A DNA stretch of 38,529 bases from NCBI GenBank assembly GCA_001769385.1, contig MEPB01000102.1, positions 1-38,529 of the forward strand, in the 5' to 3' direction. Positions 19,389-22,300 of the stretch are shown here, in pieces. Made by a program: the position numbers and the translations under genes. Position 1 is the first letter of the stretch; the number at the start of each line of letters is the position of its first letter. This DNA comes from Bacteroidetes bacterium RIFCSPLOWO2_12_FULL_35_15. Its GTDB lineage: Bacteria > Bacteroidota > Bacteroidia > 2-12-FULL-35-15. The notes below the pieces were generated by a model that saw only the letters and a list, made by a program, of their open reading frames with translations, was not told the origin of the DNA and searched no databases.

Positions 19389-22300
19389 ATGTTAAAAGCA
19401 GAACCTTACAAAGCAAAAAATAAAATCAGGATTGTTACAGCAGCTTCTTTATTCGATGGGCATGATGCTGCCATCAACATTATGCGAAGAATTATTCAAA
19501 GCAGTGGTGCGGAAGTAATTCATCTTGGTCATGACAGAAGTGTTGAGGAAATAGTAAACTGTGCCATACAGGAAGATGCCAATGCAATTGCCCTCACATC
19601 CTATCAGGGAGGACACATGGAATTTTTGAAATATATGTATGACCTGCTAAAAGAAAAAGATTGCGCACATATAAAAATTTTTGCAGGTGGTGGTGGAACA
19701 ATTCTTCCAATAGAAATTGAAGAACTTCAGAACTATGGCATTACGCGTATTTATGCTCCGGATGATGGGCGCTCAATGGGCCTGCAAGGCATGATCAATG
19801 ATATGCTTGAAAAATGCGACTACCCGACAGGTGCGAATCTGAATGGAGAAGTAAAAAATTTAAAGAACAAAGATGTAAGATCAATTGCCCGATTAATATC
19901 TGCTGCAGAAAATTTTCCGGAACAGTTTGCAAAATTCAGCACAGATATTACAAAGGAAATAAAAACAAAAATTACGCCTGTGCTTGGTATTACCGGAACC
20001 GGTGGTGCCGGAAAATCAAGCCTGGTAGATGAATTGGTACGAAGATTTTTAATAGATTTTAAAGATAAAACGATCGCAATAATTTCTGTTGACCCTTCGA
20101 AACGTAAAACCGGTGGAGCATTGCTTGGTGATAGAATCCGAATGAATGCCATACGTAACGAGCGAGTGTATATGCGTTCATTAGCAACCCGTCAAAGCAA
20201 TTTAGCATTATCAAAATATGTTAAAGAAGCAGTTGAAATTGTTAAAGCAGCAAATTATGATCTGATCATTCTGGAAACATCCGGCATCGGACAAAGTGAT
20301 ACTGAAATTACAGAACATTGTAATATGAGTTTGTATGTGATGACACCTGAATATGGTGCAGCTACACAACTTGAAAAAATCGACATGTTGGATTTTGCGG
20401 ATGTCATCGCATTGAATAAATTTGATAAACGGGGAGCATTAGATGCTTTGCGCGATGTAAAAAAACAATATAAACGCAATCATAATTTATTTGATCTGGA
20501 TGATGAAAATGTTCCTGTTTATGGAACAATTGCATCCCAATTCAATGATCCCGGAATGAATAAATTATACAAAGTTGTTGTAAATAAATTAGCGGAAAAA
20601 ACAGGTGCTGATCTAAAATCAAACTTTGTAGTGACGGATGAAATGAGTGAGAAAATCTACATCATTCCACCTCATCGCACCCGTTATTTGGCTGAAATAG
20701 CTGAGAACAACCGCAATTATGACAAATGGGTAAATGCACAAAAAGATATTGCGCAAACTTTATATTCCATTGTTAAAACGATGCAATCGGTATCCGGTGT
20801 CATTCTGAACCCTTCTTCAGGCTCAGGGCTGGCTGTGAAGAATCTTGACACAATTGTAGAAGAGATTCTTCGTTCCACTCAGAATGACAAAAAAGATTTT
20901 ATCAAAATACTTTCAGCCGAATACGATCGAGTAAGATTAGCTTTTGACGGTCATAATAAAAAAATCATTGAGGGCTGGGCAGAAAAAGTGCAACAATACA
21001 AAAATGAATTCTTTGTTTTTAAAGTGCGAGATAAAGAATTAAAAATTCAAACCCATTACGAATCGCTTTCTCACAGCCAGATCCCAAAAATTTCAACACC
21101 ACGTTATGAAGCATGGGGAGATATTTTAAAATGGAATTTACAGGAAAATGTACCGGGAGAGTTTCCATTCACAGCTGGGGTGTTTCCATTCAAACGGGAA
21201 GGAGAAGATCCAACACGTATGTTTGCCGGGGAAGGCGGACCGGAAAGAACTAACAGAAGATTTCATTATGTAAGTTTAGGAATGCCTGCACACCGATTGA
21301 GTACAGCATTTGACAGTGTTACATTGTATGGGCAAGATCCTGCCATTCGCCCTGATATTTATGGGAAAATAGGTAATTCAGGAGTTTCTATCTGTTGTCT
21401 GGATGATGCAAAAAAACTATATAGCGGGTTTAATTTAGCGGATCCGAAAACATCTGTATCAATGACCATTAATGGCCCGGCAGCAATCATGACAGGCTTT
21501 TTTATGAATGCAGCCATTGACCAACAGTGTGAATTTTACATCAGACAAAATGGTTTAGAAAAACAAGTTGAATCTGACATACAGCAAATTTACAAATCCA
21601 AAAATGTTGCCCGACCGAAATACCAGGGAGAACTTCCAAAAGGGAATGACGGTTTAGGATTAATGTTATTAGGTGTTACCGGAGATCAGGTATTACCAAA
21701 AGAGGTATATGAAAAAATAAAATGCGAAACAATTGCAGCGGTTCGGGGCACTGTACAAGCTGATATTTTAAAAGAAGATCAGGCACAGAACACTTGTATT
21801 TTTTCAACCGAATTTGCATTGCGTTTGATGGGAGATATGCAGGAATATTTCATAAACAATAATATCCGTAATTTTTATTCAGTTTCCATTTCCGGTTATC
21901 ATATCGCGGAAGCAGGTGCCAATCCTATCACACAGCTTGCATTAACATTATCGAACGGCTTCACGTATGTGGAATATTATGCAAGCCGGGGAATGGATAT
22001 AAATAAATTTGCTCCGAATTTATCCTTCTTCTTCAGTAACGGAATCGACCCTGAATATTCGGTAATAGGCCGTGTTTCACGCAGAATATGGGCAAAAGCA
22101 ATGAAAATAAAATACAATGCGAATGAACGTTCGCAAATGTTAAAATATCACATTCAAACTTCAGGTCGTTCATTGCATGCACAGGAAATTGATTTTAATG
22201 ACATTCGGACCACCTTACAAGCTTTGTATGCGATTTACGATAATTGCAATTCATTGCATACAAATGCATACGATGAAGCCATTACGACCCCTACTGAAGA

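Follow-up and report, generated by a model that had tools for sequence, protein, structure and literature searches.

Palindromic repeats that are translated as part of a protein are familiar mainly from Rickettsia, along with sporadic cases of intragenic REPs. The locus analysed here raises the question of how such a repeat came to be read in frame within the linker of a Bacteroidota B12 enzyme. The window, that is, the whole stretch of DNA under analysis, comprises 38,529 nt of Bacteroidetes bacterium RIFCSPLOWO2_12_FULL_35_15 (contig MEPB01000102.1, GCA_001769385.1, positions 1-38,529, forward strand). It contains icmF, the product of which scored 1735.7 bits against the NCBIfam IcmF model NF045497 (cut-off 1500). 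A first-pass annotation had described in this gene a 92-bp element with perfect 11-bp inverted ends and an inner stem, and both the coordinates and the sequence were reproduced. Genomes and linkers are coded below where they must be told apart (own genome, G000; window icmF linker, L027; relatives, G024/L028, G010/L029, G018/L031, G041/L048 and G038/L052).

19389..22844, plus strand: icmF, fused isobutyryl-CoA mutase/GTPase, 1151 aa (open reading frame; NCBIfam NF045497; Pfam B12-binding, MeaB and MM_CoA_mutase)
20754..20948, plus strand: variable linker, codons 456-520, differing block-wise among close relatives (identity inside and outside, alignments, linker versus linker-masked trees)
20798..20889, plus strand: composite palindromic element, complete codons V471-D500
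20798..20808, plus strand: left 11-bp terminal inverted repeat, TGTCATTCTGA
20879..20889, minus strand: right 11-bp terminal inverted repeat, exact reverse complement of TGTCATTCTGA
20837..20845, plus strand: left side of the inner stem, GAAGAATCT (from the fold)
20863-20871: right side of the inner stem, AGATTCTTC
20863..20889, plus strand: right arm, AGATTCTTCG...CAGAATGACA, 26/27 identical to the copy on contig C58
20810..20828, plus strand: nested copy belonging to another dispersed family, 17/19 identical to CCCTTCGACAGGCTCAGGG, lying in the 21 nt missing from G010

The 92-bp element is translated in frame and without a stop within the open reading frame at 19389-22844. It had been credited with adding about 30 residues; 30 complete residues (471-500) are indeed encoded, but the net gain is 25 relative to the nearest relative and 7 relative to G010 and G041. 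As single-stranded DNA, the 92-mer folds into a branched hairpin of -17.3 kcal/mol (z -3.06), and 3 of 200 shuffles were equally good. At up to one mismatch, the two ends are the sole matches to the 11-mer TGTCATTCTGA in the window against 0.88 expected, a count that is unremarkable by itself because 28 of 100 shuffles reach two; for the 27-bp right arm, 0.00 matches are expected at up to three mismatches. When linkers were recoded synonymously (400 recodings per linker, run on the 28 distinct linkers with a stem score of at least 8), the longest stem of the window element was equalled by a single recoding (p 0.0025).

A BLAST search of the own genome with the 92-bp query returned 25 further places at E<=10, 17 of them at E<=0.01. 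All 17 (11 grouped into three clusters on C68, the remaining 6 elsewhere on other contigs) cover the right arm only (query 56-92), and no own-genome match spans the whole 92 bp; one genomic copy shares 26 of 27 bases with the right arm (E 1e-5). With the 77-bp G010 version as the query, matches at E<=0.01 were obtained in 16 of the 36 genomes of the genus sample, the window genome and G010 included, with 18 other matches of the family (TGTCATTCTGA...TCAGAATGACA) in the window genome and 12 in G010. The left arm of L029 is identical over 28 of 28 bases to copies in G005 and G026. Three of the 51 distinct arms in the fetched loci lie well inside long open reading frames, and since all three come from icmF of the window and G010, icmF is the sole gene entered by this family among the copies read. 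The TGTCATTCTGA family is a dispersed palindrome of the MITE/REP-like kind, with terminal inverted repeats, a hairpin and multiple, mainly intergenic copies. On contig C68 of the own genome, TGTCATTCTGA-type arms alternate with a related GTCATTTCGAACG repeat in clusters at about 21.7-22.1, 28.4-28.7 and 81.2-81.4 kb, spaced 82-90 bp apart in the first two.

The icmF of G010 carries the TGTCATTCTGA element minus 21 nt that are present in the window, and this extra segment contains CCCTTCTTCAGGCTCAGGG (20810-20828), a nested copy of the CCCTTCGACAAACTCAGGG repeat. At up to two mismatches, the nested repeat occupies 28 places in the own genome, icmF and 27 others (reversed-pattern control, 0), among which the icmF copy alone lies within an open reading frame of at least 120 aa. 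The 92-bp element is thus a composite of two repeat families, one nested inside the other. A variant of the nested repeat, TCCTTCGACAAGCTCAGGA, is found at 28686-28704 of the window, outside long open reading frames.

The central proposal of the first-pass annotation, namely that the linker joining the GTPase and mutase domains of a Bacteroidota IcmF contains a dispersed palindromic repeat translated in frame, is supported, and residues 471-500 probably derive from such a repeat. It is highly improbable that these residues are native linker that resembles a repeat by chance or convergence. Such an origin would accommodate the linkers of G041 and Aquimarina (L127, L132), which share the register and are 64 residues long, like that of G010, without repeat arms, as well as Flavobacterium linkers encoding a similar helix (for example, GIVEESLNHSADKKEF in L133), but it has to contend with the 26/27 and 28/28 matches to genomic copies, with a palindrome that beats nearly all synonymous recodings and with the other repeat families that occupy the same tip.

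How the element arrived is less clear-cut than a simple insertion would suggest. Linkers were compared from 53 genome-derived IcmFs and from the best 80 of 582 IcmFs in named records; the two sets overlap and comprise 117 distinct sequences. In the nearest relative, G024, the IcmF protein is 94% identical, and the linker (L028) is 25 residues shorter and different throughout approximately 60 codons; the bases of the two genes are 85.5% identical outside codons 456-520 and 47.5% inside. The same holds for G010 and its nearest relative, G018 (90.4% outside, 45.9% inside). A clean 92-bp insertion relative to the nearest relative is ruled out, as the entire linker differs. Likewise, the expectation that relatives would lack exactly this stretch failed: G024 differs over the whole linker, and because the arm-free linkers of G041 and Aquimarina equal that of G010 in length, no empty site of the TGTCATTCTGA element was seen. 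The linker of G038 retains GAGATCCTTCGCTCTGCTAAGGATGA, which resembles a right arm, and related repeat arms occur in G041 (8) and G038 (6, with 2-3 mismatches).

The trees disagree as well. In the linker tree, the window, G010, G041, G038 and five Flavobacteria split from all other linkers with support 100, in contradiction to the linker-masked tree (47 sequences), in which the window pairs with G024 and G010 with G018, each with support 100. It is possible, at somewhat less than an even chance, that a whole repeat-bearing linker allele was swapped between lineages by short-tract recombination, possibly aided by repeat homology, and that no insertion into icmF took place in this lineage. The drop in identity within the linker in both pairs and the conflict between the trees would follow from such an exchange; however, G024 and G018 may instead be the lineages that changed, the tract of approximately 190 bp is short and has no identified donor, and short linkers make weak trees. 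A recent transfer between the window and G010 is disfavoured because their linkers (71.8% identical) have diverged about as much as their genes (75.5%). Given that the linker and gene trees disagree, that the window-G010 divergence is gene-like and that G010, G041 and several Aquimarina linkers share the length of 64 residues, the sequences suggest one of two histories: an exchange of linker alleles, whichever lineage it affected, or the decay of an old element in some lineages. In the window lineage, the element may have arrived by insertion, by old descent or with an exchanged allele.

The linker was readable in 33 of the 36 genus genomes, and several repeat families proved to occupy its tip. 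In-frame palindromes of fam2 (CCTGTCAGG..CCTGACAGG) were found there in G026, G015, G017 and G022 (twice in G022) and those of fam3 (CCTTCAAGG..CCTTGAAGG) in G005 and G014, while G010 carries the window's own TGTCATTCTGA family and a Flavobacteriales MAG (L142) an in-frame palindrome of the CCCTTCAAGGG type. In the recoding test, at most 1 of 400 recodings was as good for the linkers of G026, G015, G017, G022, G005, G014 and L142; for G010 the figure was 15 of 400 (p 0.0375), weakly beyond protein constraint, and p fell below 0.05 also in three linkers without a known repeat family (L108, L166 and L060). Decayed or half copies, as judged by eye, are present in G018, G009, G027 and G002. The linker of Flavobacteria bacterium BAL38 (L137) contains TGTCAAACTGAGCTTGTCGAAG...TTCAGAATGACA, perhaps another family, with an ordinary stem (p 0.47).

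Across the genus sample, 15 of the 36 genomes contained fam2 (up to three mismatches) and 6 contained fam3, with zero reversed-pattern matches. Further fam2 or fam3 copies elsewhere in the genome accompanied all 8 congeners with an intact linker palindrome, against 7 of the 25 others (Fisher p 0.0005, phylogeny ignored); the eight were picked by family, not by p alone, and in the window and G010 the linker element is of the TGTCATTCTGA family. Among 247 genomes of the class, a G017 linker query matched four outside the genus, none of them repeat-bearing (best stem scores 6, 6, 6 and 8). As different repeats lie at the same spot in some relatives, this stretch of the linker seems to be a tolerated landing place. 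In Hymenobacter and Solirubrum IcmFs (L145, L164, L167, L170 and L171), Gly/Ser/Ala-rich stretches lie at the same tip.

Retention of the element for a function, as an mRNA hairpin or as a linker module tuning GTPase-mutase coupling, appears improbable. Over the 22 codons that the window and G010 copies of the element share, 7 sites differ, 5 of them third positions (p 0.045), and this bias, together with the hairpin z of -3.06, would be expected of a retained sequence; yet an intact linker palindrome is missing from 25 of 33 congeners, and the filling of the same tip by unrelated families and by the Gly/Ser-rich stretches of Hymenobacter fits tolerance better. We claim no role for the element beyond that of a spacer.

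The predicted structure places the element where such tolerance might be expected. As the full-length IcmF model was poor (mean pLDDT 61.4, pTM 0.44), residues 160-560 were modelled instead (401 residues, mean pLDDT 79.3), yielding a helix at 428-469, coil at 470-485 and helices at 486-496 and 499-516, with confidence below 50 at residues 476-482, which the extra 21 nt encode. In this model, the element forms the tip of a helical hairpin between the GTPase and mutase domains, in agreement with the disordered or helical loop that had been anticipated: a coil and a short helix are predicted between long helices. IcmF structures ranked first in VIA-align (Z 22.9-27.2, rmsd 21-24 A over 333-346 residues), a comparison that barely tests the linker fold because its rows mostly cover model residues 1-269. 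The alignment to Cupriavidus IcmF, in which a linker joins the G-protein and mutase domains as described in PMC10481361, runs to query residue 457 and resumes at 520, with 32 residues in between as against 62 in the window IcmF.

Two of the families lie beside candidate mobilizing genes. The own genome contains, on G000:C45, a transposase-like gene with one fam2 palindrome 14 bp 5' of its presumed ATG and another 11 bp past its stop codon; in G026, a REP-transposase-like gene on C2 (L333, 1501-3021) is associated with five fam3 copies, one inside the gene in frame and four before or after it. Because both families flank transposase-like genes that match REP_Tyr_transpos (NCBIfam NF047646), with 61.4 bits for the G000 protein and 50.5 bits for the G026 protein, both below the cut-off of 80, it is very likely that fam2 and fam3 represent the REPs of a RAYT that has diverged. 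On G004:C45, two fam2 copies lie upstream of a transposase-like gene, on one side only, the protein being named by motif alone.

For the TGTCATTCTGA family, the arm was absent from the 1.5-kb flanks of 12 PF01797 matches, a search that had missed the C45 gene, and the fetched arm loci, scanned with a single transposase motif, gave no match. The transposase gene in the window (35349-35795) was rejected as the mobilizer, being by score of the IS200/IS605 type (63 bits, cut-off 55) and not a REP transposase; around it, at 34900-36200, no inverted repeat of at least 10 bp within 90 bp was found.

In-frame translation in unrelated conserved proteins holds for fam2/fam3 and for fam5 (CCCTCTCC/GGAGAGGG); the TGTCATTCTGA family was seen in icmF only. 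The fetched loci contained 144 distinct fam2/fam3 copies (fam2 100, fam3 44), a subset of the genomic copies. Eight of these were intragenic, defined as at least 40 codons inside a stop-to-stop open reading frame of at least 150 aa: four in the icmF linker, two in ileS, one in cas1 and one in the REP-transposase-like gene. All eight read as xLSGFxxLTG / NLQGFxxLEG, and at least one strand offers another stop-free frame. The cas1 gene concerned encodes a type II Cas1, and its in-frame palindrome belongs to fam3 (L230, G012:C104, 926-958). A single site in the ileS loop (30 loci) holds fam3 in G026 and G014, fam2 in G002 and fam5 in the own genome, with fam5 inverted in G001 and G019. In the own genome, fam5 occurs at 16 places, 6 of them in open reading frames, namely valS and the following loci.

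L418, G000:C33: ileS
L428, G000:C37: leuS
L421, G000:C42: polA
L419, G000:C6: D-Ala-D-Ala-ligase-like protein (below model cut-offs)
L424, G000:C100: one unnamed protein

In valS (window 8461-11118, plus strand), a fam5-type repeat at 9078-9096 (minus strand) is translated in frame as IEDLSPALSKGDGDW, a stretch that coincides with a gap in the solved ValS 1gax. A fam5 search in plasmids gave seven records from mixed bacteria. The window also contains, at 29081-33515 (minus strand), two adjoining genes, one for a 982-aa DNA polymerase III alpha-like protein and one for a Y-family polymerase, which may form a cassette of error-prone polymerases.

Collectively, we consider it likely that a dispersed, non-autonomous palindromic repeat of the REP/MITE-like kind joined the icmF frame and has been tolerated at the hairpin tip of the GTPase-mutase linker. 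Support comes from families that are dispersed and, in the copies read, mostly intergenic, from several unrelated ones that are stop-free at a single tip and from two that flank REP-transposase-like genes, and the third-position bias between the window and G010 copies also favours this reading; the tolerance would stem from the place at the helical-hairpin tip. Under this capture model, palindromic repeats would insert widely across the genome, and insertions into genes would be purged unless the frame was kept and a permissive loop was struck; the survivors would afterwards evolve like ordinary coding sequence, and the window TGTCATTCTGA element would have acquired a smaller repeat within its left arm. 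A wider generalization, that a few housekeeping proteins of this genus offer, in their exposed loops, recurrent docking sites where unrelated REP families become stop-free linker peptides, nested and exchanged as cassettes between lineages, is tentative and, on balance, rather unlikely; if true, selfish repeats would be a continuing source of protein linker sequence. Across the 33 genus genomes, this single linker position presents multiple families, one nested pair, short linkers devoid of repeats and copies that look decayed, and so provides a natural series in which the entry, accommodation and decay of repeats in proteins can be measured. Since IcmF structures are solved, the cost of a captured repeat is directly measurable.

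The class of phenomenon, intragenic REPs with different REPs at about one site, is already known, as in-frame or intragenic repeats are described in PMC10969869, PMC2229807, PMC3733652 and PMC6006769. The matches listed from a literature search covering few subscription papers include no description of this IcmF case, a search combining Rickettsia palindromic, in-frame and Bacteroidetes found nothing, and the matches listed for the repeat sequences look unrelated by title. For Rickettsia and other bacteria, PMC10969869 and PMC2229807 describe palindromic repeats translated in frame; like those here, the Rickettsia palindromic elements are dispersed palindromes of several families, in frame in conserved proteins and apparently tolerated. 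The likeness that the first-pass annotation drew to these elements therefore stands for in-frame behaviour in conserved proteins, by resemblance only and in another phylum.

Similar in gene placement are the intragenic GTAG/CGTC REPs of PMC3733652, reported in DNA polymerase I, tRNA synthetase and repair genes, perhaps in linkers or loops; in recB, two Xanthomonas species carry different REPs at approximately one position. Both tRNA synthetase and polymerase I hosts and different REPs near one site recur here, whereas same-site capture covers more families within one genus; IcmF is not among the intragenic-REP genes named in the compared passages of that paper. REPtrons of TnpA_REP subclasses 2.4 and 2.6 comprise a hairpin-flanked transposase gene, with Bacteroidetes among the hosts, and in subclass 2.4 hairpins also lie in frame within the transposase gene (PMC6006769), as in G026; two of the transposase-like genes here score below the NCBIfam REP transposase cut-off. 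What is new is the capture of several families, one nested in another, by a single linker in one genus, with block-wise different alleles: unlike the Rickettsia elements, at least three unrelated families occupy one linker across species, one of them nested and two found beside REP-transposase-like genes.
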